Shown: positions 1 through 11,651, counted from the stretch's first letter. The stretch is 64,000 bases of DNA from a virus (IMGVR_UViG_3300020312_000068:18022-82021); one strand, 5' to 3'. The notes: generated by a model from the letters alone, not told the origin. A program made the numbers and translations.

Positions 1-1
1 G

Positions 2-118
2 ACGAAACAACAAAACGATACGACAATGCGGTTGTTATTGTCCGTAGCTTCATATTTGCTACTTACCTTATCACTAATTGCTTTATTATTAGTGGTGTCA
101 TTCGGCATTGGTAGATGA
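2..118 (+). CDS. Partial membrane-type ORF, C-terminal end only
   Basis: The frame is open from the window edge to TGA at 116-118. An internal ATG at 26 would give a 30-residue peptide that is almost entirely hydrophobic (Leu, Val, Ile, Ala, Ser) and ends in GIGR, so this is either a tiny single-pass membrane protein or the C-terminal membrane segment of a longer upstream gene. It shares ATGA with the methyltransferase start at 115, which suggests translational coupling. No family is recognised. The 5' end lies outside the window if the ATG at 26 is not the start. Confidence 0.45.
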   Translation, partial: TKQQNDTTMRLLLSVASYLLLTLSLIALLLVVSFGIGR

Positions 119-1068
119 GAGACACAATATTATATGGTGACTGTCGTGAAACTCTTGGTAATCTCAAAGCACAGATTCAAGTGGGTGTTGCTGAGAGACC
201 AAGGATGTGTGTCACATCTCCACCTTATTATGGTTTAAGAAACTATGGTAATGAAGAGAAGCAAATAGGTCAGGAGCAGACTCCTGAAGAATATATCCAA
301 AACTTAGTAAACGTATTCAGGGAGGTTCGAGATGTGCTCGCAGATGATGGAACTTGTTGGCTTAATATTGGCGATAGTTACTATAATTACAGACCTGGAA
401 GGGGACAAGGATTGGTCAAACAGACAGTCTCAAATTCTAAGCAAGACTTACCAGATGTGTGTGCTCGTAGAGGAAATAGACTCGACGGACTCAAAGAAAA
501 AGATTTAATAGGTATACCATGGATGCTCGCATTCGCATTGAGAGCAGACGGATGGTATTTAAGACAGGATATAATATGGCACAAGCCTAATCCTATGCCT
601 GAGTCAGTCAAGGATAGATGTACCAAATCACATGAGTATATCTTTCTATTAACCAAGAACCACAAGTATTATTATAACCATGAAGCAATTAAAGAGAAGG
701 CAGTGGGTGAACGATGGGGTGGTAACACTCCTATTAATATGGATAATACTAAGGATGTTGACAATCAGTTTAGTGGTTTAACAAGACCACGTAAGATGGT
801 GTATGAGAAGAGGAATAGAAGATCAGTGTGGAAGGTAGCTACTAAACCATTTAAAGGAGCACACTTCGCTGTGTTCCCACCTGAGTTGATTGAACCATGT
901 ATCAAGGCAGGATCAGAGGAGGGTGACATCGTACTCGATCCCTTTATGGGCAGTGGTACAACAGCACAAGTGGCACAGTCACTGGATAGACACTGGTTAG
1001 GATGTGAACTACATGAAGAGTACAGTAAAATAATAAACAAGCGAGTACCTGGCAAACTACCCCTTTAG
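115..1068 (+). CDS. DNA methyltransferase, beta class, probably N4-cytosine type
   Basis: This 317-residue protein should transfer a methyl group from S-adenosylmethionine to DNA. The catalytic motif IV is TSPPYY (residues 34-39), the form usual for N4-cytosine enzymes, and the SAM-binding motif I is DPFMGSGTT (275-283). Catalytic motif before SAM motif is the beta-class order. The middle (about 90-250) is basic and aromatic and probably holds the target-recognition region. The start overlaps the preceding stop as ATGA. It lies in a cassette with a nuclease-like gene at 1894 and a second methyltransferase at 2438, so it may protect phage DNA from host restriction or from the phage's own nuclease. 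The m4C assignment rests on the motif only, and the recognition site is unknown. Confidence 0.85.
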   Translation: MRDTILYGDCRETLGNLKAQIQVGVAERPRMCVTSPPYYGLRNYGNEEKQIGQEQTPEEYIQNLVNVFREVRDVLADDGTCWLNIGDSYYNYRPGRGQGLVKQTVSNSKQDLPDVCARRGNRLDGLKEKDLIGIPWMLAFALRADGWYLRQDIIWHKPNPMPESVKDRCTKSHEYIFLLTKNHKYYYNHEAIKEKAVGERWGGNTPINMDNTKDVDNQFSGLTRPRKMVYEKRNRRSVWKVATKPFKGAHFAVFPPELIEPCIKAGSEEGDIVLDPFMGSGTTAQVAQSLDRHWLGCELHEEYSKIINKRVPGKLPL

Positions 1069-1126
1069 TGGACGGTTGATAAACTGTCACACTGTTCCCC
1101 CATTTAGAATAATAAGGCTATATTAT
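1068..1126 (+). promoter_or_regulatory. Hairpin-box/-10 element ahead of the small-gene cassette
   Basis: An imperfect inverted repeat pairs GTGGAC (1068-1073) with GTCACAC (1086-1092, one bulged base). It is followed after 28 nt by TATTAT (1121-1126), with a further TATACT at 1124-1129. The layout matches the better-conserved elements at 3986, 5860, 7291, 8245, 9041, 9896 and 10285. This is the weakest member of the family. Confidence 0.45.
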
Positions 1127-1152
1127 ACTATTATACACAACGGAGGGCTACC

Positions 1153-1371
1153 TTGTTAATGTCACTACACTTCGGAAGACACTTCTGGTTAGATGAGGAG
1201 CATGAGTTATGCTCATGTCCTACATTTACTGATGGTACACCTGATCTAGATCAAACTGATTATGTATCTGAGTGGACTGAACTAGAGGATGTTGACCTAA
1301 GTAAACTTCTTTATGTTCATCGTCAACTTATCACTCAAGACGCAGTAACCTATTATGAGGCAAGAGCATGA
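1153..1371 (+). CDS. Hypothetical small acidic protein
   Basis: A 72-residue protein with no recognised family. It is acidic and contains CSCPTF near residue 18 and several Trp and Tyr residues. The TTG at 1153 is favoured as start because GGAGGG (1142-1147) lies 5 nt upstream; the ATG at 1159 would be 11 nt from it. It is the first gene after the regulatory element at 1068-1126. Its stop overlaps the next start (ATGA at 1368), so it is probably cotranslated with the zinc-ribbon gene. Confidence 0.6.
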   Translation: MLMSLHFGRHFWLDEEHELCSCPTFTDGTPDLDQTDYVSEWTELEDVDLSKLLYVHRQLITQDAVTYYEARA

Positions 1372-1571
1372 GGTACGCATTAGCAGGACCATACTCATTG
1401 GATTTTAAACCAGTGAATCCACGCTCACGTGCTGGCAAGAACGGTAAACTCTTATTATGTCCACATTGTAAGGGTCTATCAAGAGTATATCATTTCTCAT
1501 GGTCTGCTCTATCATGCCAGACATGTGGCAAATCCATCAACAAATACGACTGGGAGGTCGGACACAAATGA
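1368..1571 (+). CDS. Small zinc-ribbon protein
   Basis: A 67-residue protein with two CxxC pairs: CPHC near residue 32 and CQTC near residue 51, about 16 residues apart. This spacing is that of a zinc ribbon that could bind one Zn ion with four cysteines. Such ribbons usually mediate nucleic-acid or protein contacts; nothing in the sequence identifies the partner. It is linked by ATGA overlaps to the genes on both sides (1368 and 1568), which places it firmly in the methyltransferase/nuclease operon. Confidence 0.7.
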   Translation: MRYALAGPYSLDFKPVNPRSRAGKNGKLLLCPHCKGLSRVYHFSWSALSCQTCGKSINKYDWEVGHK

Positions 1572-1897
1572 AACTAACTATTTCACCCCAAGGTCTAGTA
1601 AACAACAAGGAGTCATGGAACGATGATGTATCCACCCAACAACTCGTACGAACTGCTGTACATACTGTGCTGGAAGAGTTGGATCAAGAGGTTCTCGAAG
1701 AGTGGGAACTAGATGATGGTTCTATTGAAATAGAATCACATCACAACAACGTGATCTACAGAGGCACAGCAAATCCTAATGCTACTAACTCTGAGTTCGA
1801 TGGTTTCCCACCATACTATAACAAGGTCACTGAACCTGTTGAACTAGAGAACGTTACTGATGACTGGTATGATGAGGAGGGTAACTTAATCCCATGA
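1568..1897 (+). CDS. Hypothetical acidic protein
   Basis: A 109-residue protein beginning MKLTISPQG. The start at 1568 is chosen over an upstream ATG at 1499 because it overlaps the previous stop as ATGA, as at every other junction in this operon. The protein is strongly acidic, with a Glu/Asp-rich stretch at about residues 35-52 and a DDWYDEEGN tail, and has no recognised domain. It directly precedes the nuclease-like gene (ATGA at 1894). An inhibitor or DNA-mimic role is conceivable from the charge but is speculation. Confidence 0.65.
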   Translation: MKLTISPQGLVNNKESWNDDVSTQQLVRTAVHTVLEELDQEVLEEWELDDGSIEIESHHNNVIYRGTANPNATNSEFDGFPPYYNKVTEPVELENVTDDWYDEEGNLIP

Positions 1898-2460
1898 AAG
1901 CAGGTAGTTTCAATGCCATCACACCACCACTAGATTCACCTAGGATGAGAGATTTCCTTAACAGGTGCCTAGGATTGAAGTGGAAGGAGGGTACAGCACA
2001 TGAACATCAGGTACGTGACATACTTGATGAGATGGAGATAGTGTATGAGTACCAACCTAATGGTTCACAACAGTTCCCTGATTTCAATGTACCATCACGT
2101 TGGGGAACGATACAGTTAGAGTGTAAGAGTAGTCAGCGTGCCAATCCCACATATAATAGTGGGAGACCGCACATGGGTGGACTATACATATTCTGCTCTA
2201 AGAAATACGATCAGACTACCATATTCTATGGTGATGACGTACTCACTCTTGAGAAGAGAGCATTGTATGATGAGTACCTAGCGGAACAGAAGGCACTGTT
2301 GGAGAAGTATCAGGCACGTGCTGACTGGAAAGATGACCGTGGGTTTGACTTTTACAATAGAGAGATGTATACTCAGAGTGGTGGAGCGCAATATACTGAC
2401 TACTTTACCCATAAAGATCGTAAACTATGTGAGGACAATGTATTTCGTAGTTTCAACTAA
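1894..2460 (+). CDS. PD-(D/E)XK nuclease-like protein, possible restriction endonuclease
   Basis: A 188-residue protein. Residues 62-63 are Pro-Asp and residues 76-78 are Glu-Cys-Lys, set in a beta-hairpin-like context (FPDFNV, then IQLECKSS). This is the PD-(D/E)XK arrangement of many type II restriction and repair nucleases, in which the Asp, Glu and Lys bind metal and activate water. A charged helix with HEHQVRD precedes it. Because it sits between two DNA methyltransferase genes (115 and 2438), it is likely the nuclease of a phage restriction-modification-like cassette, although degradation of host DNA is also possible. It overlaps the next gene by 23 nt. The cleavage specificity cannot be read from the sequence. 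Confidence 0.7.
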   Translation: MKAGSFNAITPPLDSPRMRDFLNRCLGLKWKEGTAHEHQVRDILDEMEIVYEYQPNGSQQFPDFNVPSRWGTIQLECKSSQRANPTYNSGRPHMGGLYIFCSKKYDQTTIFYGDDVLTLEKRALYDEYLAEQKALLEKYQARADWKDDRGFDFYNREMYTQSGGAQYTDYFTHKDRKLCEDNVFRSFN

Positions 2461-3319
2461 GTGTGAAGAGCACTTATGGGGATGGGAGGAGAATTCCTTT
2501 CATGCCTGTATCACTGACCCACCATACGGTATGGGCATGGAAGAGTGGGATCATAGTGTCCCAACAGTAGAAATATGGCAAGAAGTATACAGGACACTAA
2601 AACCTGGAGCATTCTTGTTATCATTCTGCTCACCACAGTTGTATCATCGTATGGCATGTGCGGTAGAGGACGCAGGATTTGAGATTAAAGATCAGATCAT
2701 GTGGATGACCACTACTAAGATGCCTAAAGTAAACAGATTGAAACCAGCACATGAACCTATTGTTGTGGCACAGAAACCCACAGAGGGTAGTCTCAAAGAT
2801 AACTTTGAGAAATATGGAGTGGGTTACATTAACACTGTGGATACGAGGATACCATGGGATAAGGATCCACCGAAGGGGTGGGTCGCTCAAGGTGGAAAAC
2901 GTAGAACCTTTGGTAAGGAGGGTAATACGAAAGGTGGTGGAGCTAAGTATGGTACTGTAGATGCTAATCCTGACGGTAGATACCCATCTAATATCATAGG
3001 TGAGGTACAAGAGGAGCACCAGAAGTATTTCTATGCGCCTCGTGCTACTCGTAAAGAGAAGGGAGCAGACAATGACCATCCAACAGTTAAACCAGTATCA
3101 TTGATGGAGTATCTCATCAAGATATACTGTCCACCTAAGGGTATGATATTAGATCCTTTCTGTGGTACAGGCACCACTGGTGTCGCTGCTCTACCCACTG
3201 AACGTAGTTTCTTGGGTATTGAGATGAATCCACATTATGCTGATATCGCAGAGCGACGGTGTGCGGATGCTGAACTGCCCACTGAGTTCTGGCAAGCACC
3301 TGTAGATGAGGTACAATAG
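2438..3319 (+). CDS. DNA methyltransferase, beta class, probably N6-adenine type
   Basis: A 293-residue protein when started at the ATG at 2438, which has GAGG just upstream. An upstream ATG at 2318 would add about 40 residues with no methyltransferase character, fully overlapping the nuclease gene. Motif IV is DPPY (residues 27-30) and motif I is LDPFCGTGTT (238-247), again in beta-class order. DPPY is typical of N6-adenine enzymes. The middle (about 110-195) is Gly/Lys-rich and probably contains the recognition region. It differs clearly from the TSPPY enzyme at 115, so two different modifications or sites are likely. It is the last enzyme of the cassette. Confidence 0.85.
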   Translation: MYFVVSTKCEEHLWGWEENSFHACITDPPYGMGMEEWDHSVPTVEIWQEVYRTLKPGAFLLSFCSPQLYHRMACAVEDAGFEIKDQIMWMTTTKMPKVNRLKPAHEPIVVAQKPTEGSLKDNFEKYGVGYINTVDTRIPWDKDPPKGWVAQGGKRRTFGKEGNTKGGGAKYGTVDANPDGRYPSNIIGEVQEEHQKYFYAPRATRKEKGADNDHPTVKPVSLMEYLIKIYCPPKGMILDPFCGTGTTGVAALPTERSFLGIEMNPHYADIAERRCADAELPTEFWQAPVDEVQ

Positions 3320-3323
3320 GCAC

Positions 3324-3488
3324 ATGATTAAATCAAACATGGACGATCCAGTCTATTTCACTAAGACTGAGGTCAAATTCCTTAAGTTCTGCCTATCGCA
3401 GAGCATGGAGTGGGTCTACCACTCAGATAGGGTACAACAGCAAGCTATCATTGCTAAACTGGATCACCTATCGGAGGCACAAGATTAA
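3324..3488 (+). CDS. Hypothetical small protein
   Basis: A 54-residue protein beginning MIKSNMDDP. An in-frame ATG at 3306 would add six residues and overlap the methyltransferase end; neither start has a strong Shine-Dalgarno sequence. It is rich in Phe, Gln and Trp and has no recognised motif. It ends just before the SprT-like gene, which continues in the same reading frame after the TAA. Confidence 0.5.
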   Translation: MIKSNMDDPVYFTKTEVKFLKFCLSQSMEWVYHSDRVQQQAIIAKLDHLSEAQD

Positions 3489-3530
3489 TATGTTGAGGAT
3501 GATGAAACTATTATTTGTAATTTCTGGAGT

Positions 3531-3998
3531 TTGGTTCTTACACTGGTTATGTCTCATTCCATTTTCTATTCAGGCCATCATCAGCAGAAGCGCATCACAG
3601 ATGCCTTCATTGACTGGTTTGTCCACAAATATATCGGTAAACGGTATAAACTGGACTTCCATGTTGTAACCAAGGGATTAGTCAAAGAGAATCTCTATGG
3701 TGAGATGGGAGTACTGGACAGTTTATCCAGACCGAGACTATTTGAAATAGTAATCCGCTACAACTTGAGTAAGTGGGATTACCTAGTCACACTGGCACAT
3801 GAAATGATACACTGTAAGCAACGTGTATACAAGGAGTATGTGACCAGATATAATAGAAACTATTGGTACAAGTCATTTGTACCTGACTCTGTTCCGTATC
3901 TTGATGAACCATGGGAGGTTGAGGCACGGAAGTGGGAGTATTACTTAGCACATGAGTCCATAAGACAAGGGATAATTACCACAGTGACACCTGAATAA
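3531..3998 (+). CDS. SprT-like zinc metallopeptidase
   Basis: A protein of about 155 residues containing LAHEMIHCKQ, a perfect HExxH zinc-binding motif (His90, Glu91, His94 counted from the TTG at 3531). A downstream PWEVEARKWE segment (about residues 125-134) probably supplies the third metal ligand, as in SprT/minigluzincin-type peptidases. Such proteins occur in marine T4-like phages; substrates are unknown. The start is uncertain: TTG at 3531 or ATG at 3549, neither with a good ribosome-binding site. The reading frame is open back to the TAA of the previous gene at 3488. The regulatory element at 3986 overlaps its 3' end. Confidence 0.7.
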   Translation: MVLTLVMSHSIFYSGHHQQKRITDAFIDWFVHKYIGKRYKLDFHVVTKGLVKENLYGEMGVLDSLSRPRLFEIVIRYNLSKWDYLVTLAHEMIHCKQRVYKEYVTRYNRNYWYKSFVPDSVPYLDEPWEVEARKWEYYLAHESIRQGIITTVTPE

Positions 3999-4041
3999 GT
4001 GTCCACAATACCATGATTCCTCGTTAGTTTGCCCTTATAAT
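3986..4041 (+). promoter_or_regulatory. Hairpin-box/N29/TATAAT element ahead of the helicase
   Basis: GACAC (3986-3990), an 8-nt loop, GTGTCCAC (3999-4006), 29 nt of spacer, then TATAAT (4036-4041). The repeat GACACCTGA...AGTGTCCAC is nearly the same at 5861-5881. No TTGACA-like -35 is at normal spacing, so an activator bound at about -45 is inferred. The -10 box lies in the loop of the terminator at 4019-4062. Confidence 0.65.
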
Positions 4042-4062
4042 AGGGACACTAACGAGGTTTTT
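4019..4062 (+). terminator. Intrinsic terminator enclosing a promoter and a Shine-Dalgarno
   Basis: CCTCGTTAGT (4019-4028) pairs perfectly with ACTAACGAGG (4048-4057) and is followed by TTTTT (4058-4062), a textbook intrinsic terminator with a 19-nt loop. The loop contains TATAAT (4036-4041). The 3' arm contains GAGG, the only plausible Shine-Dalgarno for the helicase ATG at 4064. Read-through RNA would hide it; RNA started from the internal promoter would not. Confidence 0.75.
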
Positions 4063-4063
4063 A

Positions 4064-5290
4064 ATGCTTTCATTACGTCCACATCAAGTAAGGACAATCA
4101 ACAGTATGAGAACTGTTGATAAGGGTACAATATACATTCCTACTGGTGGTGGTAAGACAAGGTGTATGATTGAGGATCTAAAGTTCAGACTCAGTGGTGC
4201 TACAGATAAGATCACAGTTGTGGTCGCACCACGTATCATGCTTGCTCTACAATTAGCAAATGAGTTTGACACAGCATTAAATGAGGAGCGTTACGTTATT
4301 GGTCATGTACACAGTGGTGAGACTGATGACTGGTGCTCTACAGATACAGATGAGATACGCAATTTCTTAGAGGGAGCGATCTCATTTGGTAACAATCCCA
4401 TCATATTCTCTACATATCATTCACTTCACAAGTTGGTTGAGGCAGGTGTGTATGCTGATCATGTATACTATGATGAAGCACACAATAGTACTCAGCGTAA
4501 TTTCTTCCCAACTGTAGCATCATTCAAGACTACACACGCATATTATTTCACTGCTACACCAAAGAATAGTTCTAAGCACGCACGTGGTATGAACAATGAG
4601 GATGTGTATGGACAGAATATCATCACAGTTGATGCTAATGAGTTACTAGACTGTGGAGCGATCATCCCACCAACAGTACAAGTACATACTATTGACACTG
4701 TTCGCACTAAGAAAGAGATAGCAAACATTGATGCTACCACTGTTATACGTGTTGTTGATAATGGTGACGCAGAGAAGGTGCTCGTTGCTGCCCCATCAGC
4801 ACGTATCATCAACAGAATGATAGCACATACTGATCTATTCATGGAGTTAAAAGCACGTGGATACACAGTATTACGCATCACATCTAAGCATGGAGCATTT
4901 ATTGATGCTAAGAAGGTGAATAGAAAGGAGTTCTTCAAGCAGTTACACATCATGGGTGCGGATAAGAATGCTAAATTCATCCTCTTCCACTATTCTATAC
5001 TCTCTGAGGGTATCAATGTTGCGGGACTAACTAATGTAATCCTGCTACGTAACCTAGGTGTGGTTGAAATGGCGCAGACTATTGGTCGTGTGATCCGCTT
5101 AGATAAGGAGGATTCACAGAATATAAATGATGGCACACTTAAACCACGTGCTTATCAGAACTATATCAAACCAACTGGAATTGTATCTGTACCAGTGTAT
5201 ACTAACCACAATAAGAACACTGCTACAAGAGTACAAAGAACAGTTAATACTATCTTCAATGAGGGTAAACCAGCAACAGCATGGATATAA
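4064..5290 (+). CDS. Superfamily II DNA/RNA helicase
   Basis: A 408-residue ATPase that should translocate on nucleic acid. Walker A is PTGGGKT (residues 26-32), Walker B is DEAH (137-140), motif III is FTATP (about 162-166), and a C-terminal motif VI reads QTIGRVIR. RPHQ at residues 5-8 acts as a Q-motif-like element. The size and layout suit a compact two-RecA-domain helicase; a UvsW-like role in phage recombination or replication restart is possible by analogy with T4 but not shown. The start follows directly after a terminator hairpin whose 3' arm carries the ribosome-binding site. Confidence 0.85.
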   Translation: MLSLRPHQVRTINSMRTVDKGTIYIPTGGGKTRCMIEDLKFRLSGATDKITVVVAPRIMLALQLANEFDTALNEERYVIGHVHSGETDDWCSTDTDEIRNFLEGAISFGNNPIIFSTYHSLHKLVEAGVYADHVYYDEAHNSTQRNFFPTVASFKTTHAYYFTATPKNSSKHARGMNNEDVYGQNIITVDANELLDCGAIIPPTVQVHTIDTVRTKKEIANIDATTVIRVVDNGDAEKVLVAAPSARIINRMIAHTDLFMELKARGYTVLRITSKHGAFIDAKKVNRKEFFKQLHIMGADKNAKFILFHYSILSEGINVAGLTNVILLRNLGVVEMAQTIGRVIRLDKEDSQNINDGTLKPRAYQNYIKPTGIVSVPVYTNHNKNTATRVQRTVNTIFNEGKPATAWI

Positions 5291-5321
5291 CCCTTAGAGA
5301 CGCTTCTAGAGGTCACACAGA

Positions 5322-5903
5322 ATGATTAATACCATGTTCTCAATACCATTAATTCACTACAATGTGGATAGATGGTTGTATAAAAGAAATAAACTACTCG
5401 ATCTCATTCCCCACGATGATATGACGCTAGGGGATGAGACTGTAGTATCAAATTATCAAGGTGCTAACAATCAGTGCGCGTTGATACAAACTATACTAGA
5501 GGATGAGATTAAACTATTCAACAGACAGTTGAACTGTAACGCACAAATAGTAAGAGCATGGTTTGAACAAGCAGATAATAGTATGTTTCATCCACCCCAT
5601 ACACATGGTCATGGAGGATGGAGCGCAGTATTATTCTTAGACTATAATCCTGAGCACCATACACCCACCATATTCATCAGTCCATTCAATCATTTCATTG
5701 ATGGATCGCAATTACAATACAGACCAGAGTGTAAGGAGGGAGATCTTATACTATTTCCTAGTATGCTATTACATTACACACTACCTAACACATCAAATGT
5801 GCGTAGAACAGTGTGTTCATTCAATCTAACAGTGGATATGGATAATATCCCACTCGCATGGACACCTGAGATAGTGTCCACTGATCCACCACAAGCATCC
5901 TAA
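5322..5903 (+). CDS. 2OG-Fe(II) oxygenase superfamily protein
   Basis: A 193-residue protein of the kind common in cyanophages. It has a His cluster HPPHTHGHGGW (residues 90-100), a distal His151 in FPSMLLHYTLPN and an Arg pair near 162 followed by a beta-strand (CSFNLTV). This resembles the small 2OG-Fe(II) oxygenase families in which a proximal His motif, a distal His and an Arg hold iron and 2-oxoglutarate. Substrate unknown; phage homologues are suspected of modifying host proteins or metabolites. The next regulatory element (5860-5915) begins inside its 3' end. Confidence 0.75.
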   Translation: MINTMFSIPLIHYNVDRWLYKRNKLLDLIPHDDMTLGDETVVSNYQGANNQCALIQTILEDEIKLFNRQLNCNAQIVRAWFEQADNSMFHPPHTHGHGGWSAVLFLDYNPEHHTPTIFISPFNHFIDGSQLQYRPECKEGDLILFPSMLLHYTLPNTSNVRRTVCSFNLTVDMDNIPLAWTPEIVSTDPPQAS

Positions 5904-5915
5904 AAGCGTTATAAT
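5860..5915 (+). promoter_or_regulatory. Hairpin-box/N28/TATAAT element
   Basis: GGACAC (5860-5865), loop CTGAGATA, GTGTCCAC (5874-5881), 28-nt spacer, TATAAT (5910-5915). The predicted start of transcription, about 7 nt past the -10 box, falls on or next to an ATG at 5922. The loop sequence TGAGAT recurs in the minus-strand element at 8279-8302. Confidence 0.65.
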
Positions 5916-5919
5916 ACAT

Positions 5920-5984
5920 GTATGGAAGGCAAGGGTGACGGATACCACACCAGAACACGTCTTTAAATCGAACCTCTTCCATAC
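5920..5984 (+). other. Stem-enclosed 14-codon ORF downstream of a promoter
   Basis: GTATGGAAG (5920-5928) pairs with CTTCCATAC (5976-5984), enclosing 47 nt. Inside lies ATG (5922) to TAA (5964-5966), encoding a 14-residue basic peptide. The ATG sits at the predicted transcription start, so it would be leaderless. It could be a regulatory micro-ORF, a structured leader or chance. No tRNA T-loop or cloverleaf fits. Confidence 0.3.
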
Positions 5985-6005
5985 CTATTCACTTGCTATT
6001 ATCCA

Positions 6006-6137
6006 ATGAGCATCGTTAACCCAACAGTTCACCCATCATTTGTGTTCTACGCATTCAGATCATGCCAGAACGGTAATGACATCCTACAGCGTATTGATGA
6101 TTTGATTCTTGACAATGTATTTGTTGGTGCTAGATAA
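6006..6137 (+). CDS. Hypothetical 43-residue protein
   Basis: The frame runs from the ATG at 6006 to TAA at 6135-6137 and encodes a 43-residue peptide beginning MSIVNPTVH, with a Cys and an acidic amphipathic second half (ILQRIDDLILDN). There is no clear ribosome-binding site. It fills the otherwise empty space between the oxygenase gene and the gene at 6157. No family recognised. Confidence 0.5.
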   Translation: MSIVNPTVHPSFVFYAFRSCQNGNDILQRIDDLILDNVFVGAR

Positions 6138-6156
6138 CAGTAATCACTGAGGTTAA

Positions 6157-6399
6157 ATGCCCAGACAATATCCTTTCTCAAGAGGAGATTATGTTCAAGT
6201 AGATGGGGAGGAGGGATACATTAATTGTATCTCTCCCCATTACTTTACTCTCACTACGCACCAGTGGGAAGCGCCTGGTACTCTACACGGAGTAAGACAA
6301 GTCAATGTACTTATCTTCAGGCATCTTTGGCCTAACATCATTTTCATTTCTAAACATCATGTGGATTCCGATGAACACGATTCAGATCAAGGCATGTGA
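6157..6399 (+). CDS. Hypothetical small protein, SH3-like barrel character
   Basis: An 80-residue protein beginning MPRQYPFSRGDYVQVDGEEG. The alternating hydrophobic pattern RGDYVQVDGEEGYINCISPHYFTL resembles small beta-barrel (SH3/KOW-like) phage proteins, which is an impression, not an assignment. GAGG at 6147-6150 lies about 6 nt before the ATG and supports the start. The C-terminus is acidic (HVDSDEHDSDQGM). It overlaps the next gene. Confidence 0.6.
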   Translation: MPRQYPFSRGDYVQVDGEEGYINCISPHYFTLTTHQWEAPGTLHGVRQVNVLIFRHLWPNIIFISKHHVDSDEHDSDQGM

Positions 6400-6568
6400 C
6401 CAAGAGGTACACGTCGCCATAGAAAAGAAGAGAAGAGGATATTATTGGAGTTATGAACATCTAAACAAGTTCTATGGTCCATTCAAGGGCAAAGAAGATT
6501 GTTTAACTGATGCTCGCACGTATAGCAGGTATGGTACTACAAATAAACAACTCATTTCATCAACCTAG
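6371..6568 (+). CDS. Hypothetical small protein
   Basis: A 65-residue protein starting MNTIQIKACDQE. Earlier in-frame starts at 6359 and 6305 are possible, but those upstream residues read like a shadow of the preceding gene. It contains a basic stretch EKKRRGYYWSYEHLN and a probable short beta/alpha structure. No family is recognised. Its 3' end overlaps the oxygenase start that follows. Confidence 0.5.
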   Translation: MNTIQIKACDQEVHVAIEKKRRGYYWSYEHLNKFYGPFKGKEDCLTDARTYSRYGTTNKQLISST

Positions 6569-7124
6569 TGATGTAGAAAGAAGACTGTTAGTAATAGATC
6601 GTTTCAAGGATATAATACTACAGGAGTTCTTACCACTAACACTGGAGTTCAAAGACCTATCAACTTACCAAGATGATTACATTAACAGTAATGGTCAAGG
6701 GTATACGATAGGTCTTGAACAGTATGAAAAAGCAAAAGAACAAGACAGTGGATGGGCAATAGCACCATTATGGTATGATGATTATGAGTATACACGTAAC
6801 AGTATGCTCATGCCCAAGACAACTAAACTATTGAAGTGGATAGGACATACAACGTATGCTGGCATAACAGCATTACATCCTGATCATGGACTAGACTGGC
6901 ACCATGATGATGATCCATTTCCTAACAAGTTACAGATGAGAGTATTCTATACTCTAAAGACATGCGGAGGATCATACATTGAGGTAGAGGAGACAGAGAA
7001 GAGGATTAAGAAGAGGTACTTCAAAGAACAAGAATACATCATATTTCATAGTAAGAAGAGACACAGAGTATGGAACGAAGGTATTCTACCAAGGTATTCT
7101 CTTGTAATTGACGTTTTGAAATAA
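6531..7124 (+). CDS. Aspartyl/asparaginyl beta-hydroxylase-like 2OG oxygenase
   Basis: A 197-residue protein from the ATG at 6531 (an alternative ATG at 6510 adds seven residues). The segment LHPDHGLDWHHDDDP followed by RVFYTL, then HSKKRHRVWNEG and RYSLVIDV, matches the aspartyl/asparaginyl beta-hydroxylase fold: a His-x-Asp-type iron site, a distal His, and an Arg for 2-oxoglutarate. It is a different subfamily from the oxygenase at 5322. Its substrate is unknown. It is followed by a 237-bp non-coding gap. Confidence 0.75.
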   Translation: MVLQINNSFHQPSDVERRLLVIDRFKDIILQEFLPLTLEFKDLSTYQDDYINSNGQGYTIGLEQYEKAKEQDSGWAIAPLWYDDYEYTRNSMLMPKTTKLLKWIGHTTYAGITALHPDHGLDWHHDDDPFPNKLQMRVFYTLKTCGGSYIEVEETEKRIKKRYFKEQEYIIFHSKKRHRVWNEGILPRYSLVIDVLK

Positions 7125-7290
7125 ATGTTTAATTAAATGTGTATGGGCGTAGATACTCTTGGATAGTATCCTGAGAATAAAGGGTGCTTATTGAGAATAA
7201 ATCAGCGGAAATGCTAGTAAACATGCGGTGTCGTTGTGGTCTAAGGCCGTCGCCTACCAAAAGTCAAGCAGCCTTGTGATACTTTTTAAA
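7125..7290. other. Non-coding gap with a direct repeat
   Basis: I see no convincing gene here. The gap holds a 10-nt direct repeat TGAGAATAAA (7172-7181 and 7192-7201, 20-nt period) and a 6-bp inverted repeat GATACT/AGTATC near 7152-7170. A 22-codon ORF at 7211-7279 lacks supporting signals. The remainder leads into the promoter at 7291. Confidence 0.4.
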
Positions 7291-7333
7291 GTGTCCACCT
7301 TTTGCCCAAAACTGAGACTTTTGGCCTTATAAT
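7291..7333 (+). promoter_or_regulatory. GTGTCCAC/N29/TATAAT promoter
   Basis: GTGTCCAC (7291-7298), then TTTTGCCC, then TATAAT (7328-7333) exactly 29 nt from the box. The minus-strand element at 9041-9099 has the same box, TTTTGCCC and spacing. CCAAAA and TTTTGG in the spacer could form a 6-bp hairpin. Predicted transcription start about 7340, giving a leader of about 22 nt to the ATG at 7362. Confidence 0.65.
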
Positions 7334-7361
7334 TAGTTTATAGTCAATCAGAGAGTTTCCA

Positions 7362-7655
7362 ATGGCAACGGCCAAAAGTGGCACAAAACCGAGAAAGCGC
7401 AGAGTTTCACCAAAAAAGGTGAAAGATGTGACTTTTGACGTTTCTGAGATTTCTACAGCTATTAACATAATAGCCATAAAAGATCAGAAAGTGTGTATAA
7501 CCTTCCAAGGTCAAGAAAAGGAGTATGTTTACAACTATTCTGACAACTTGGCAGCTTTTGTGAAAGAGTTAGAAAAGTTCACAAAAGAGCAACATCTATC
7601 ATTAGGGAAATACTTTAACGGTTTAGTTAAAGACGGCAAACTCACTCAGAGCTGA
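7362..7655 (+). CDS. Basic-tailed hypothetical protein
   Basis: A 97-residue protein with a Lys/Arg-rich N-terminus (about residues 5-21, KPRKRRVSPKK) followed by a compact domain with alternating beta pattern (KVCITFQGQEKEYVYNYSDN) and a Lys-rich helix. The tail suggests nucleic-acid binding. No family is recognised. It is the first gene behind the promoter at 7291, and its stop overlaps the next start by one base. Confidence 0.65.
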   Translation: MATAKSGTKPRKRRVSPKKVKDVTFDVSEISTAINIIAIKDQKVCITFQGQEKEYVYNYSDNLAAFVKELEKFTKEQHLSLGKYFNGLVKDGKLTQS

Positions 7656-7840
7656 TGAAAATGGCTAAAAGCTATAAGAACAGGAGAAATCCTGGAAAGC
7701 AGTCGTTTGGCCAGAAAAAGAGAGAATACTTTGAAAGTATGGATCTCATGGATTCTGGTTACATTGACAAAATGTCCAATAAAACACGTATTCAGGCAAA
7801 TTGTGACCTAGAATACGACGACCCCAACGATTACGACTAA
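7655..7840 (+). CDS. Hypothetical small charged protein
   Basis: A 61-residue protein starting at ATG 7655, which shares one base with the preceding stop; ATG 7661 is an alternative. The N-terminal half is basic (KNRRNPGKQSFGQKKR) and the C-terminal half acidic (DLEYDDPNDYD). No family is recognised. It belongs to the three-gene unit transcribed from 7291. Confidence 0.55.
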   Translation: MKMAKSYKNRRNPGKQSFGQKKREYFESMDLMDSGYIDKMSNKTRIQANCDLEYDDPNDYD

Positions 7841-7842
7841 CC

Positions 7843-8025
7843 ATGGACTATAGCACAACCGTCACACACTACCATGCAGGACTGTTGAGTCCTGATGAAT
7901 GTGTCAAAATGATACAATTTCTTCTAGACACGGACAAACTCCTGGAATTCCCAGAATTGTTCGAGGTCTCAGATTATTATATCATGGAAGGATTGTGCTA
8001 TTATGTCCCTAGTCCAGTTGAATAA
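7843..8025 (+). CDS. Hypothetical small acidic protein
   Basis: A 60-residue protein beginning MDYSTTVTHYHAG, with an amphipathic helix (SPDECVKMIQFLLDTDKLLEF) and an acidic character. It starts 2 nt after the previous stop and ends the plus-strand unit; a hairpin at 8039-8059 follows. No family is recognised. Confidence 0.55.
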   Translation: MDYSTTVTHYHAGLLSPDECVKMIQFLLDTDKLLEFPELFEVSDYYIMEGLCYYVPSPVE

Positions 8026-8038
8026 TTGACCACAGTCA

Positions 8039-8059
8039 GCTGGATTTTTTAGATCCAGC
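8039..8059. terminator. Hairpin between convergent genes
   Basis: GCTGGAT (8039-8045) pairs with ATCCAGC (8053-8059) around a 7-nt T-rich loop, between the convergent genes ending at 8025 (plus) and 8065 (minus). No T-tract follows on either side, so termination is inferred from position. The arm sequence recurs in the hairpin at 8308-8328. Confidence 0.5.
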
Positions 8060-8064
8060 GCGAT

Positions 8065-8238
8065 TCAGTCTTCAAATTTGAGTTCGTGCTCTGCTTCAAT
8101 GACTGATTCCCAGAGGGAGTCGAATGCGTCATCGTGAGCAGGTGGCAAGTCTAAACCTGCCAACTCGCTGAACACCTCGCACAGGAGTGCATGCTGTGCT
8201 GAGTTGAGTCTGATCGTGAAGAGGTCGTTGATTTCCAT
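8065..8238 (-). CDS. Hypothetical micro-protein, paralogue of the one at 8611
   Basis: A 57-residue acidic protein, MEINDLFTIRLN to the stop at 8065-8067. Its LDLPPAHDDAFDSLWESVIE resembles LGLPPHLEEDAAYHSLFEKITE in the gene at 8611-8754, suggesting duplication. The ATG at 8238 lies about 7 nt from the end of the TATTAT box of the element at 8245-8302, so the mRNA would be leaderless or nearly so, and there is no clear Shine-Dalgarno. Confidence 0.65.
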   Translation of the reverse strand: MEINDLFTIRLNSAQHALLCEVFSELAGLDLPPAHDDAFDSLWESVIEAEHELKFED

Positions 8239-8244
8239 GTCTTA

Positions 8245-8302
8245 ATAATACACGAAAATGGGGACTAGAAAGCAAAAAAGGGACAGTATCTCAACTGTCC
8301 CT
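8245..8302 (-). promoter_or_regulatory. Hairpin terminator fused to an N29/TATTAT promoter, minus strand
   Basis: AGGGACAGT and ACTGTCCCT (8279-8287 with 8294-8302) form a 9-bp stem with a 6-nt loop. On the minus strand it is followed by TTTTTT, so it can terminate the upstream micro-gene operon. The same 3' arm then stands 29 nt before TATTAT (8250-8245), as in the plus-strand elements. It therefore looks like a combined terminator and promoter. Confidence 0.65.
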
Positions 8303-8307
8303 AGGCA

Positions 8308-8328
8308 GCTGGAATTTTTCATTCCAGC
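8308..8328. repeat. GCTGGAAT hairpin at the end of the micro-gene operon
   Basis: GCTGGAAT (8308-8315) pairs with ATTCCAGC (8321-8328) around a 5-nt loop. It overlaps the stop codon of the gene at 8319. The preceding AGGCAGCTGG is shared with the regions at 8035-8043 and 9100-9109. Confidence 0.5.
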
Positions 8329-8477
8329 GTTGTTATTGTGCCCTCGCTGACGATGATTCCATCTGCATAGTAGGAATCGAAATACGATTCCAACTCTTCT
8401 TGCAGGTGTCTCCATTGTACAGACTCTTCAACAGGCACGGAGATGTCAAAGCAAACTCTGAATTTCTCTACTGACAT
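8319..8477 (-). CDS. Hypothetical 52-residue protein
   Basis: Runs from the ATG at 8477 to TGA at 8319-8321 on the minus strand, MSVEKFRVCFDISVP..., acidic, with an amphipathic WRHLQEELESYF helix and a beta-like C-terminus. It is too short for ordinary ORF thresholds, but it starts inside the end of the upstream gene (8468-8614), the usual coupling in this operon. No family is recognised. Confidence 0.6.
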   Translation of the reverse strand: MSVEKFRVCFDISVPVEESVQWRHLQEELESYFDSYYADGIIVSEGTITTLE

Positions 8478-8614
8478 AGATCCTCAAACCTGCGAAGGAT
8501 TTCAATTTGAATGTCCTCTTGGGACATCATGGCGAGGTTGCCTGTTTCGGTTGCCTCTTGCATGACATCCTCATAAAGACTTTCAAGGATGGATTCGTGA
8601 TGAAGGGTGCTCAT
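8468..8614 (-). CDS. Hypothetical 48-residue protein
   Basis: Runs from the ATG at 8614 to TAG at 8468-8470, MSTLHHESILESLYEDVMQ..., a strongly helical acidic peptide. It shares ATGA with the upstream gene (stop 8611-8613) and overlaps the downstream one by 10 nt. No family is recognised; the coupling and the neighbours are the evidence that it is real. Confidence 0.6.
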   Translation of the reverse strand: MSTLHHESILESLYEDVMQEATETGNLAMMSQEDIQIEILRRFEDLCQ

Positions 8615-8754
8615 GAATAATCGAAGGGTGAAGGTTCAGTAATTTTCTCAAAGAGGGAATGATATGCAGCGTCCTCTTCGAGGTGAGGCGGAAGACCTAA
8701 ATCTTGAATGAAAAGAATTGCATTCACGAGTGCGGTTTCTTCTGCCTCGGTCAT
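8611..8754 (-). CDS. Hypothetical 47-residue protein, paralogue of the one at 8065
   Basis: Runs from the ATG at 8754 to TGA at 8611-8613, MTEAEETALVNAILF.... GAGGGA at the end of the upstream gene gives a good Shine-Dalgarno at normal spacing. The LGLPPHLEEDAAYHSLFEKI segment resembles the protein at 8065-8238, so the two are probably an old duplication. No family is recognised. Confidence 0.6.
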   Translation of the reverse strand: MTEAEETALVNAILFIQDLGLPPHLEEDAAYHSLFEKITEPSPFDYS

Positions 8755-8765
8755 TCGTAATTCCC

Positions 8766-9014
8766 TCACGCTGCCACCCCCTCAGGGTGGCAAAGGTCAA
8801 CGATGGTTTGCTGAGTCACTTCACGCACTGAGTCCACGTGCTTGAAATACTGATTGATGTGCTTGCTCGTAGTACGAGAGTAGTACACGTCAGTTTTGAA
8901 GTGTCCGAGGTCAAGAGAGAATCCTGCTACGGGTGTCTCATAAGAGAATAGTACAGAAGTACCATTGTTGAATGAGAGTTCAGTTTGGTTTGCACCGAGT
9001 TGTCTTAGGATCAT
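8766..9014 (-). CDS. Hypothetical 82-residue protein of cyanophage type
   Basis: An 82-residue protein with LSFNNGTSVLFSYETPVAG and YYSRTTSKHINQYF. I recall this pattern from small conserved cyanophage proteins of unknown function: two beta-strands, then a short helix. It is the first gene of a four-gene minus-strand operon (8319-9014) driven from the element at 9041-9099; the predicted leader is about 20 nt. Confidence 0.7.
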   Translation of the reverse strand: MILRQLGANQTELSFNNGTSVLFSYETPVAGFSLDLGHFKTDVYYSRTTSKHINQYFKHVDSVREVTQQTIVDLCHPEGVAA

Positions 9015-9040
9015 TTTAGTCCGATTTGGTTGACTCTTTT

Positions 9041-9099
9041 AATATAGTCCATATGCAGGCAGTGCAGGGGCAAAAGTGGACACCTTGTCAACTGTCCAC
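9041..9099 (-). promoter_or_regulatory. Hairpin-box/N29/TATATT promoter, minus strand
   Basis: GTGGACA (9076-9082) and TGTCCAC (9093-9099) form a 7-bp inverted repeat with a 10-nt loop. Read on the minus strand, GTGTCCAC then TTTTGCCC precede TATATT (9046-9041) by 29 nt, copying the plus-strand element at 7291-7333. Confidence 0.65.
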
Positions 9100-9117
9100 A
9101 GGCAGCTGAGCAAAAAA

Positions 9118-9141
9118 AGAGCACCCCTGAGGGTGCTTTTT
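9118..9141. terminator. Bidirectional intrinsic terminator
   Basis: AGCACCC (9120-9126) and GGGTGCT (9131-9137) form a 7-bp stem with loop CTGA, flanked by an A-run on the left and TTTTT on the right, so it can terminate in both directions. It lies just beyond the stop of the minus-strand gene at 9144. Confidence 0.85.
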
Positions 9142-9143
9142 AA

Positions 9144-9452
9144 TTAGAACTTGATTCTGCCGATTACTGGCAAGAGTTCTTTGGTTAGTGCCTCAAGGTA
9201 GAGCAGAGGCAACAGGATCAAACTTAGACCGTCTCTTGGATAATCCTTGAGAGATTTCAAGTTGACCTTTGCGTCTTCGATCTTTTTGTATGATCTCTTG
9301 ACGCTTTCAGAATCTGGAGTGATGACCACTTTTGCAGGTTCTGGTTTTGCAACCGCTTTGCGAGTTCTCGCTTTTGGGGTTGCTGGTTTCCGTGTCCGTG
9401 TCTTACGTGCTGGTTTTGCTGCGGTTGACTTGGAAGCGGTTGAAGTTGGCAT
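9144..9452 (-). CDS. Histone-H1-like basic-tailed protein
   Basis: About 102 residues from the ATG at 9452; an upstream ATG at 9467 would give a nearly leaderless form behind TATAAT at 9484-9479. The first 50 residues are Lys/Ala/Pro/Thr/Arg-rich with repeated KPATPKARTRK-like units, resembling bacterial H1-like tails, and should bind nucleic acid non-specifically. The second half is a compact helical region ending in LLPLLYLEALTKELLPVIGRIKF. A terminator follows at 9118-9141. Precise role unknown. Confidence 0.65.
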   Translation of the reverse strand: MPTSTASKSTAAKPARKTRTRKPATPKARTRKAVAKPEPAKVVITPDSESVKRSYKKIEDAKVNLKSLKDYPRDGLSLILLPLLYLEALTKELLPVIGRIKF

Positions 9453-9478
9453 GCAGAAGAAATGCATTTGACTCTTGC

Positions 9479-9484
9479 ATTATA
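9479..9484 (-). promoter_or_regulatory. TATAAT -10 box for the H1-like gene
   Basis: TATAAT on the minus strand, 11 nt before the ATG at 9467. No GTGTCCAC box lies 28-29 nt upstream, so it does not belong to the hairpin-box family. Confidence 0.45.
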
Positions 9485-9583
9485 GTCACAACCCGACCCC
9501 GTTTAGCAAACCCGTAACATAATGAAACAATAAAACGGCTGACTTTCTGTTTCAATATGTAACGCTTTTGTTGGTTAGGTCTC

Positions 9584-9883
9584 ATGATCCTTTATTATAA
9601 GGTCATCGGTGAGGAGGGGTTCGCGGAATGTCCCCTGTTCGACCCTCACCGAGTTTTCTTCACAACTGAATCTATGGCACTGTCTTCTTGGACACCGACC
9701 AACAACAAACCGAATCATCCCCACTACATGCCCAACAAGAAATGGAATTCTTACAAGCGATGGGTTGATGCAGGATTCATCTTCTTTGATCGAATGGAAT
9801 TCCATATGAGAGCATACCCGCCCATGAACTTTCGACCTAACACCAGCGGGCACAATATCATCACTCTCACCCGCCACTTCTAA
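9584..9883 (+). CDS. Hypothetical aromatic-rich protein
   Basis: A 99-residue protein beginning MILYYKVIGEEGF, rich in Phe, Trp, Tyr, His and Pro, with a beta-like pattern. The overlapping minus-strand frame of similar length (9575-9877) is rejected because its composition is Arg/Ser/Cys-rich and it has no ribosome-binding site. TTAGG lies just ahead of the ATG. No family is recognised. It is transcribed divergently from the H1-like gene and ends before the element at 9896. Confidence 0.55.
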   Translation: MILYYKVIGEEGFAECPLFDPHRVFFTTESMALSSWTPTNNKPNHPHYMPNKKWNSYKRWVDAGFIFFDRMEFHMRAYPPMNFRPNTSGHNIITLTRHF

Positions 9884-9895
9884 CCAGTTGGATTA

Positions 9896-9939
9896 GTGGC
9901 ACACTCGACCCCTTCTAGGGGTCTTTTTTTGTGTATACT
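9896..9939 (+). promoter_or_regulatory. GTGGCACAC/N29/TATACT promoter
   Basis: GTGGCACAC (9896-9904), 29-nt spacer, TATACT (9934-9939). The spacer contains a complete intrinsic terminator (9907-9930), so promoter recognition would span a terminator hairpin. The box is a variant of GTGTCCAC that is repeated exactly at 10291-10299. Confidence 0.6.
9907..9930 (+). terminator. Intrinsic terminator within the 9896 promoter spacer
   Basis: GACCCCT (9907-9913) pairs with AGGGGTC (9917-9923) around a 3-nt loop, followed by seven T. It terminates the gene ending at 9883. Confidence 0.85.
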
Positions 9940-9965
9940 AAAAGAGTAAACAAACGAGATTCATT

Positions 9966-10277
9966 TTGCAGACTCATTCAATCACCCTCGGCATGAACAT
10001 CCCAAACGAGGGCAAACTCACAAACCAAATGTGGGTCGATTTTCTAAACAGCGTTTCTGATCTTATCCCATATTGCACCATACAGGATGCAGTCGGAATT
10101 TTCAAAGGCGAGGTTGAGCAAAGCAAAATCATCTCAATCACCGTGGACGAAAGAACCACAGGTGCAATGCACATGATCTCAAATCTTGAAAAGGTCGGGG
10201 ACATGTACAAAAAACAGTTCAGGCAAGAATGCATAATGTATTCTATGACCAAGGTCGATAGTCTGACCTTCGCCTAG
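9966..10277 (+). CDS. Hypothetical protein
   Basis: A 103-residue protein from the TTG at 9966; GAG at 9956-9958 is a weak Shine-Dalgarno at 7 nt. The next in-frame ATG (9993) would remove nine residues. The sequence has a mixed alpha/beta pattern (MWVDFLNSVSDLIPYCTIQDAVGIFKG...IISITVDERTTGAMHMISNLEKV) and no recognised family. It forms a single-gene unit between the promoter at 9896 and the hairpin at 10285. Confidence 0.6.
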   Translation: MQTHSITLGMNIPNEGKLTNQMWVDFLNSVSDLIPYCTIQDAVGIFKGEVEQSKIISITVDERTTGAMHMISNLEKVGDMYKKQFRQECIMYSMTKVDSLTFA

Positions 10278-10284
10278 GACAGTC

Positions 10285-10333
10285 AAGAGAGTGGCACACG
10301 TTGTCACTCTCTTTCCTTTTTTCCCTCTATAAT
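10285..10333 (+). promoter_or_regulatory. Hairpin terminator with GTGGCACAC/N28/TATAAT promoter
   Basis: AAGAGAGTG (10285-10293) pairs with CACTCTCTT (10305-10313), followed by a T-rich tract, a likely terminator for the gene ending at 10277. GTGGCACAC (10291-10299) overlaps the stem and stands 28 nt before TATAAT (10328-10333). Predicted transcription start coincides with the ATG at 10340. Confidence 0.65.
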
Positions 10334-10339
10334 GAATGT

Positions 10340-10519
10340 ATGAAAAACAAACTCATTCAAGGCGACGGTTTTCTTTGCTCTCCAGGTATGGAGGATTTCT
10401 GCAAAAGAATGGTCGCCCAAGAGAGACAACAAATGCAGATCGATGAAGAGATTCGTCTCGGACTAAGACCTGCCCCCAGTAGACACTTCGGATACTGGAA
10501 CATAAGCGATAGACATTAA
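10340..10519 (+). CDS. Hypothetical 59-residue protein, probably leaderless mRNA
   Basis: Begins MKNKLIQGDGF at ATG 10340 and ends at TAA 10517-10519. The ATG lies 7 nt beyond the TATAAT at 10328-10333, where transcription should start, and no Shine-Dalgarno precedes it. It is helical and charged in the middle (MEDFCKRMVAQERQQMQIDEEIRLG), with an aromatic C-terminus. The stop codon lies in the loop of the hairpin at 10502-10534. No family is recognised. Confidence 0.6.
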   Translation: MKNKLIQGDGFLCSPGMEDFCKRMVAQERQQMQIDEEIRLGLRPAPSRHFGYWNISDRH

Positions 10520-10537
10520 CGCTCTATCGCTTATAAT
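10502..10537 (+). promoter_or_regulatory. 12-bp hairpin merging into a TATAAT box
   Basis: ATAAGCGATAGA (10502-10513) pairs perfectly with TCTATCGCTTAT (10523-10534), loop 9 nt. TATAAT (10532-10537) begins inside the 3' arm. It differs from the GTGTCCAC family but again joins a hairpin to a -10 box. It precedes the gene at 10568. Confidence 0.55.
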
Positions 10538-10567
10538 TAAAACATCACACACAGGAGATTTCATTCT

Positions 10568-10753
10568 ATGGCATCATGGGCAGTACAACCCTCATCATGG
10601 GGTAACGAACTCAAAGCAAATGCAGAGTTTGGTTCTGACTTTGACCGCATCCAAGACATTGCTTATTCATGGGCAACTGAAATGGGTGAAGCGATGACAG
10701 TATGGAAGTGTGGGACAATCAGTGAATTTAAGTGGATGGAGGTAGATGCTTAA
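10568..10753 (+). CDS. Hypothetical small protein
   Basis: A 61-residue protein beginning MASWAVQPSSWGNE, rich in Trp and acidic residues. AGGAG at 10553-10557 gives a good ribosome-binding site. Its TAA overlaps the ATG at 10753. No family is recognised. Confidence 0.6.
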   Translation: MASWAVQPSSWGNELKANAEFGSDFDRIQDIAYSWATEMGEAMTVWKCGTISEFKWMEVDA

Positions 10754-10917
10754 TGAACGCATCAACTCACGAACTCTTATCAACTGACCCTTACATCAAA
10801 TACTATTTTCTCTCATGTCCCGATCAACAAGAACAGCAGTCCGTTATTGGACAAACCAGCAAAACAACCCGCGTTTACTCTGGTTCAACTCATTCCAAGA
10901 GGCAGTCGATCTTGTAG
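10753..10917 (+). CDS. Doubtful small ORF overlapping the gene at 10815
   Basis: Starts at the ATG sharing one base with the previous stop (MNASTHELLSTDPYIKYYFLSC...). The first 22 residues look protein-like, but from about residue 22 the sequence is Ser/Thr/Gln-rich and resembles a shadow of the frame starting at 10815. It may be a short coupling ORF, or the two frames may be one gene split by a frameshift. Confidence 0.35.
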   Translation: MNASTHELLSTDPYIKYYFLSCPDQQEQQSVIGQTSKTTRVYSGSTHSKRQSIL

Positions 10918-10973
10918 AGGGATTTCTCAAATGTGGTTACCGTGCTGAGATAGCACCGCCACATATCAGATAA
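10815..10973 (+). CDS. Hypothetical 52-residue protein
   Basis: Runs from the ATG at 10815 to TAA at 10971-10973, beginning MSRSTRTAVRYWTNQQN and continuing with FNSFQEAVDLVEGFLKCGYRAEIA. The amphipathic helix and the even composition make this the more convincing of two overlapping frames. A GC-rich hairpin follows. No family is recognised. Confidence 0.6.
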   Translation: MSRSTRTAVRYWTNQQNNPRLLWFNSFQEAVDLVEGFLKCGYRAEIAPPHIR

Positions 10974-11098
10974 GGACAGTCGGGGGCGTTGCGCCCCCCC
11001 TGCCCCGTTTAAAAAGAGTCCCGTTCGTCTAACCTACAAAAGTGGGTACGTGCGGGATCGTTATATAGAAAATATTTTTTCTCAGAAATTTTTGCCCT
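10974..11098. other. Non-coding gap with a GC-rich hairpin
   Basis: GGGGGCG (10982-10988) and CGCCCCC (10992-10998) form a very stable 7-bp stem with a 3-nt loop, unusual in this AT-rich genome and without a following T-tract. Farther on is TATATA near 11072 and the inverted repeat AGAAAA/TTTTCT. No gene is seen. Confidence 0.45.
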
Positions 11099-11452
11099 AT
11101 GAGCGATCCGAATAAACTTAAACCAGGAAGTTACATAGACACTCAGGGAATGGGTGGTCCTATGACTCCAGAAGATCTTGCCAAATGGAAGGCATCTCCT
11201 GAGTATAAGAAACAGACTTACAAACCCGCCATTGTAAAACCTCGAAGACTATTCACAGATACTTACTGTAAGGAGATGTCAATATTAATCAACGAGGTAC
11301 TTGACGCAAGGGAAGGTAAGATGGATTACACATCTTATTTCGATACAGAAGAATTCAAACATCCCGTAACAGAGGATGAACCACCTTACAGTAGACCTAT
11401 CACACATGACTTCGAGAAAAGAGTCCTCAGAAAAATGTTCCCCAAAGACTGA
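11099..11452 (+). CDS. Hypothetical protein
   Basis: A 117-residue protein beginning MSDPNKLKPGSYID, with Pro-rich and Lys-rich stretches, a helical segment (YCKEMSILINEVLDAREG) and a basic C-terminus. There is no Shine-Dalgarno before the ATG. It looks like a conserved phage protein of unknown function, but I cannot name it. It overlaps the following ORF. Confidence 0.6.
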   Translation: MSDPNKLKPGSYIDTQGMGGPMTPEDLAKWKASPEYKKQTYKPAIVKPRRLFTDTYCKEMSILINEVLDAREGKMDYTSYFDTEEFKHPVTEDEPPYSRPITHDFEKRVLRKMFPKD

Positions 11453-11651
11453 GCATACATTCACCTTTACGGATGAACAATTATTATGTCTACAAGTATG
11501 CTTACAGAATGCTCCGACACCATATCATATCTCTAAGAAGAAGATAGTTGGTGATCTTGAAGGTATAATAGGTAAACCACCTGTCGTCAAGCATCCCCCC
11601 TTAAAGGTTGCTAAGTACGATCTATCAAAATATGGGATAACTGATCAATGA
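11406..11651 (+). CDS. Hypothetical protein with uncertain start
   Basis: The frame supports about 60-81 residues; protein-like composition begins at about TFTFTDEQLLCLQVCLQNAP and continues to KYDLSKYGITDQ. The ATG at 11406 is used here, ATG 11376 is longer, and neither has a clear ribosome-binding site. Its stop overlaps the purN ATG (TGATG-type junction at 11648-11651), so it is probably cotranslated with purN. Confidence 0.5.
   Translation: MTSRKESSEKCSPKTEHTFTFTDEQLLCLQVCLQNAPTPYHISKKKIVGDLEGIIGKPPVVKHPPLKVAKYDLSKYGITDQ

Follow-up and report, generated by a model that had tools for sequence, protein, structure and literature searches.

A dyad at a fixed distance from a TATAAT-like box as a probable activator-type promoter class of T4-like cyanophages

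A 24-bp pseudo-palindrome placed 28-30 nt upstream of a TATAAT-like box recurs through the early region of a T4-like cyanophage, and ~660 distinct sites of the same kind were collected in T4-like cyanophages, upstream of many unrelated gene families. The collection was gathered with the pattern itself and many of its contigs are related, so the counts do not represent independent events; hundreds of such promoters in relatives argue for a real gene-control class, which, judged from sequence, looks functional. These sites are probably activator-type promoters, at which the RNA polymerase of the host, with its main sigma factor, acts together with a dimeric dyad-binding protein.

Virus and genomic setting

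The window, that is, the whole stretch of 64,000 nucleotides analysed, corresponds to positions 18022-82021 of an 82,021-bp IMG/VR virus record (IMGVR_UViG_3300020312_000068). Its source is a T4-like cyanophage, a virus of ocean cyanobacteria. A gp6 baseplate wedge gene was located at 14182-16053 and, with the gp25, PAAR and giant gp7-type genes, the gene order matches that of Prochlorococcus phage P-HM1. The promoter sites occupy the small-gene region ahead of the baseplate genes. The giant gene at 16057-33804 is a gp7-type ORF of 5915 aa, and a second very long frame, like PHM1_097, probably runs from ~52.5 kb to the window end and leaves it. A DNA methyltransferase gene at 205-695 shares 85% DNA identity with P-SSM7, to which the rest of the first 25 kb is far less close, pointing to a putative recent exchange. 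Relatives of the early gene at 9966-10277 occur in P-HM1 and IMG/VR. Its product matched DUF3574 and the S-adenosylmethionine lyase family weakly in Pfam (E 0.0018, below the cut-off) and is a possible anti-restriction protein.

Promoter sites in the record

Eight pairs of a box and a -10 had been listed in the original prediction, and all eight were present at their coordinates with the spacing given. Sites are listed below in window coordinates, except for the tenth.

1068-1091, plus strand: dyad h, GTGGACGGTTGATAAACTGTCACA; score 28.2 by the matrix from other viruses
1121-1126, plus strand: -10 of site h, TATTAT; predicted start ~1133, gene 1159-1371
3983-4006, plus strand: dyad a, AGTGACACCTGAATAAGTGTCCAC; matrix match
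4036-4041, plus strand: -10 of site a, TATAAT; upstream of helicase gene 4064-5290
5858-5881, plus strand: dyad b, ATGGACACCTGAGATAGTGTCCAC; matrix match
5910-5915, plus strand: -10 of site b, TATAAT; next ORF probably 6007-6135
7275-7298, plus strand: dyad c, TGTGATACTTTTTAAAGTGTCCAC; matrix match
7328-7333, plus strand: -10 of site c, TATAAT; upstream of gene 7362-7655 (phrog_4357)
8279-8302, minus strand: dyad e, AGGGACAGTTGAGATACTGTCCCT; doubles as terminator-like hairpin of the upstream gene
8245-8250, minus strand: -10 of site e, TATTAT; predicted start falls on the ATG at 8238
9076-9099, minus strand: dyad d, GTGGACAGTTGACAAGGTGTCCAC; top matrix score, 33.0
9041-9046, minus strand: -10 of site d, TATATT; upstream of gene 9014-8766 (phrog_5643)
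9881-9904, plus strand: dyad f, TAACCAGTTGGATTAGTGGCACAC; matrix match
9934-9939, plus strand: -10 of site f, TATACT; upstream of gene 9966-10277
10275-10298, plus strand: dyad g, TAGGACAGTCAAGAGAGTGGCACA; matrix match
10328-10333, plus strand: -10 of site g, TATAAT; predicted start falls on the ATG at 10340
10479-10502, plus strand: ninth, weaker dyad, GTAGACACTTCGGATACTGGAACA; score 18.2, N29 before TATAAT; new relative to the original prediction
10532-10537, plus strand: -10 of the ninth site, TATAAT; upstream of gene 10568-10753
Record position 3610, ~14.4 kb upstream of the window: tenth site; matrix match

The predicted start of site h was taken from the class consensus; its dyad has a near-identical counterpart in L013 at 3718. 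Helicases related to the product of 4064-5290 are preceded by the element in other viruses too. At window positions 4019-4058, a long inverted repeat, CCTCGTTAGT...ACTAACGAGG, encloses the -10 of site a in its loop and has TTTTT after it. Nine of the ten matrix sites fall within window positions 1-14000. The proposal that the element starts most transcription units applied to ~1-10.6 kb but not to 11-14 kb; genes starting at 9467 (minus strand) and 9584 (plus strand) are without a site.

Enrichment and spacing

A matrix built from other viruses only recovered all eight sites plus two more, giving 10 in the 82-kb record with 0.2 expected (shuffles of this record, threshold 8). A first matrix of the dyad without the -10 was too weak. 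The pattern TGTCC-N28-34-TATAAT was found three times in the window, with a shuffle mean of 0.48 and none of 100 shuffles reaching three. Because the half-site pattern STGKCMC misses the TGTCCAC type, the two half-site types were counted separately when each was scanned against a TATAAT-like box at all distances from 0 to 79 nt. A single sharp peak was obtained, at 31-33 nt after TGTC for TGTCCAC and at 32-33 nt after TGKC for TGKCACA, with few matches at nearly all other distances. In IMG/VR, the dyad followed by N28-30-TATAAT was present in at least 120 stretches, against 11 in all for the same dyad with N18-20; GTGGACA...TGTCCAC with N27-30 was found in 65 stretches.

Architecture of the element

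Alignment of the sites on the -10 gave the 24-bp pseudo-palindrome TGTGMCAGTT-N4-AASTGKCACA, in which GTGGACA/TGTCCAC can take the place of the half-sites and whose 3' end lies 28-30 nt from TATAAT. The box first described is thus conserved but forms part of a larger unit, in which the inner CAGTT/AASTG (AAGTG in the window sites) is conserved as well. Relatives for comparison were fetched via neighbouring early proteins and carry the element too, mostly as TGTGNCA...TGKCACA. Most of the supposed variant boxes are therefore the common form and TGTCCAC is a second one; GTGGCACAC and GTCACAC, formerly read as degenerate, correspond to the commoner TGKCACA half-site. Half-sites mix freely (378, 105, 90 and 92 sites over the four left-right combinations), also within the same phage, and cluster modestly by virus (0.63 vs 0.52 in the null). 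Of 167 dyads, 13 are flanked by a correctly spaced -10 on both sides (2.4 expected), and the asymmetry of the dyad may give direction.

Promoter features and downstream genes

In 287 of 462 sites the first start codon follows the -10 by 20-30 nt, the usual distance being 20-28 nt, whereas the median for random positions was 81 nt. The proteins encoded downstream form 217 clusters. By a crude test, 38% of sites lie wholly within ORFs compared with 77% of random positions, so the motif is not as frequent inside genes as between them, a possibility that had been raised as a check. The base 12 nt after the first -10 base is a purine at 616 of 659 sites (93%; the -10 itself was set by the search), as expected of the predicted transcription start, and the base after it is T in 76%. 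The TATAAT-like -10 and the predicted purine start ~7 nt after it agree with a sigma70 promoter. In sites e and g the predicted start is the A of ATG, as in 33 sites of the class, so these mRNAs may be leaderless.

Counting from the predicted start as +1, the dyad spans about -65 to -42 and is centred near -53, farther upstream than the -45 originally suggested. A -35 matching TTGACA in at least four of six positions (spacer 16-18) was present in 32% of the class and in 11% of shuffled spacers. The earlier statement that no standard -35 is present was mostly correct; the class as a whole is nonetheless enriched in weak -35 sequences, and at the ninth site TAGACA was found with a spacer of 16.

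Distribution among viruses and hosts

Whole genomes of P-HM1, Syn9, S-PM2, P-SSM2, P-SSM4 and S-RSM4 were scanned with the matrix after training loci sharing sequence with them had been left out. Each carries 9-19 sites; shuffles gave 0-0.5, and four alternative spacing windows gave 0-4 apiece. With the same matrix, 0 sites were found in pelagiphage HTVC008M, which is T4-like and placed in the same family; T4, Ma-LMM01 and P-SSP7 gave no sites by the pattern with up to three mismatches. Among 122 loci, 110 contain a gene whose product resembles a protein of P-HM1, Syn9 or P-SSM7. Sites cluster in small-gene regions (P-HM1 33-39 kb, P-SSM2 44-69 kb, Syn9 43-53 kb) and in Syn9 occur elsewhere too. 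They also recur near gp150 (peptidase/cobT-like) and cobS in P-HM1, Syn9, P-SSM2, P-SSM4 and S-PM2, which suggests a conserved regulon core outside the early region. As some copies precede these replication-time genes, the class may not be strictly early.

The full strict pattern was found in 0 of 390 Cyanobacteriia genomes, drawn evenly from the class rather than from hosts. In the GTDB set the strict dyad had 42 matches, with no Prochlorococcus or marine Synechococcus among the record titles, and no common neighbouring regulator gene accompanied the strict dyads in cellular genomes. One acidobacterial genome, Pyrinomonadaceae MAG SSF56, carries the strict dyad TGTGACAGTT-N4-AAGTGTCACA six times (L159, L165, L171, L176, L188, L190). 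These copies are intergenic or situated at gene starts, most have GT after them, and, with the same asymmetry, they may constitute a separate regulon or a mobile repeat.

Proposed mechanism and alternative explanations

Host RNA polymerase would read the TATAAT box through its main sigma factor, while a dimeric DNA-binding protein on the 24-bp pseudo-palindrome would recruit or stabilise the polymerase, a step made necessary by the weak -35. With each early gene or small operon having its own copy, a single factor could activate early genes scattered over both strands as one regulon. The fixed upstream distance, the consensus -10 and the weak -35 fit an activator-dependent promoter. The original proposal was a phage early or middle class of promoters, distinct from MotA promoters, at which a factor binds the dyad ahead of a sigma70-type -10; this reading is favoured by the fixed spacing, the start codons, the 93% purine and the MotA search described below.

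As to the factor itself, the absence of the strict pattern from the 390 cyanobacterial genomes and of the strict dyad from host-titled records makes us lean to a phage protein, while host sites may be looser than the strict pattern. A cyanophage-encoded or virion-carried dimeric activator unrelated to MotA, which would serve a dedicated early regulon across T4-like cyanophages and replace the MotA/AsiA switch, is proposed tentatively, with a probability slightly short of even. Candidates were sought among proteins common to all six cyanophages, with absence from HTVC008M noted; in the cyanophage-only core proteins, Pfam and PHROGs scans gave no recognised transcription-factor domain. The phrog_385 'transcriptional regulator' (PHM1_238 of P-HM1) was not taken as a candidate because a relative is also present in HTVC008M. 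The MarR factor of cyanopodoviruses, which binds downstream of the transcription start and belongs to P-SSP7 (PMC9692554), was set aside on account of this position and of the lack of sites in P-SSP7.

Chance, or common ancestry of one repeated sequence, would be an exceedingly improbable explanation for the sites. Early-region genes of related phages are indeed homologous, but the 10 sites found against 0.2 expected and the sharp spacing peak agree with the original argument that a constant distance speaks against chance; moreover, the downstream proteins fall into many clusters, the spacers vary while dyad, spacing and -10 stay constant, and T4 and HTVC008M, T4-like phages of other hosts, have no sites. 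The inverted repeats could instead be RNA hairpins, serving upstream genes as terminators or mRNA-end structures and preceding promoters by coincidence. A folding energy of -14.7 kcal/mol and a T run after the repeat were found for site e, and terminator-like hairpins adjoin sites f and g. The hairpin at site f, however, is distinct from the dyad (9907-9923, with a T run, in the spacer 3' of it), neither site f nor site g forms a simple hairpin in this register, contrary to the earlier description of the element as a hairpin in general, and the distance to TATAAT is fixed. Among 184 distinct dyads, unconstrained inner pairs were often non-complementary and showed no covariation: pair 5/20 was complementary in 55% and pair 8/17 in 24%, the commonest combination at 8/17 being the asymmetric hairpin mismatch G..G (symmetry avoided, Fisher p = 3e-5). 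Since unfixed positions do not preserve pairing, the dyad appears to be read as double-stranded DNA; as a general explanation the RNA hairpin is largely refuted, and we give it very little credence.

If the dyad is a DNA site, it might be the operator of a repressor that shuts early genes off later, the promoters firing unaided. Dyads commonly serve as operators, the class is enriched in weak -35 sequences and sequence alone cannot separate an activator from a repressor at -53. Steric repressors, on the other hand, usually overlap the region from -35 to +1, and a dyad that stops 28-30 nt short of the -10, with helical phase almost constant, shows an activator pattern, so that repression seems improbable. 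The same activator mechanism with a different encoder is a more serious alternative: a cyanobacterial host transcription factor would bind the dyad and be borrowed by the phage, as S-PM2 and P-SSM2 borrow PhoB. Host PhoB binds S-PM2d promoters (PMC10976474), genes whose transcription has to begin early would depend on a factor that is there from the outset, and mixed half-site types within one phage are what one tolerant factor would allow. This possibility, which we regard as rather unlikely though worth serious consideration, is weakened by the strict-pattern and strict-dyad results in cellular genomes, by the poor fit of known host sites (NtcA 7/659, Pho box 0, CRP 0) and by the modest clustering of half-site types by virus. 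Under the preferred activator mechanism, the precise 24-bp site with its fixed spacing and hundreds of examples offers a ready bait for the controlling protein, and with the element early regulons can be recognised straight from the sequence of cyanophage genomes and ocean metagenomes.

Comparison with known systems

T4 middle promoters (MotA box plus sigma70 -10, with AsiA) likewise combine a sigma70-type -10, a weak or absent -35 and a phage-specific upstream box, but theirs is a single box near -30, whereas the dyad here is centred near -53. The MotA box TGCTTYA near -30 was found in 5 of 659 sites and 5 times in shuffles. First searches for MotA and AsiA lacked a positive control, and the MotA search alone was repeated with T4: Pfam PF09114 was found in T4 (3e-63) and not in P-HM1, Syn9, P-SSM7, P-SSM2 or S-PM2. 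A T4 middle promoter was thus excluded by box, position and MotA. T4-like cyanophages have been described as lacking MotA and AsiA, with unclear control of early and middle genes (PMC2984593).

The T4 late promoter motif TATAAATA was present in 0 of 659 sites and, like the NtcA, Pho and CRP motifs, does not fit them. NtcA-activated cyanobacterial promoters likewise have a palindrome upstream of the -10, which is of the TAN3T type, and need no -35. The dyad lies ~12 nt farther upstream than the NtcA class II position, and the NtcA motif GTAN8TAC occurred in 7 of 659 sites compared with 16 in shuffles. Cyanophage promoters reading a host regulator, PhoB, are known from S-PM2 and P-SSM2 (PMC10976474). 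Such promoters differ from the present class, none of whose 659 sites has a Pho box.

The closest counterpart is a novel regulatory element reported by Doron et al. in 2016 (ISME J 10:1437), which is said to govern early-gene transcription in Syn9 and to be shared by T4-like cyanophages. That element (Syn9, P-TIM40) and the sites found here have this conservation across T4-like cyanophages in common and are probably the same. The class is therefore likely to be known already, with the present genome as a new member.
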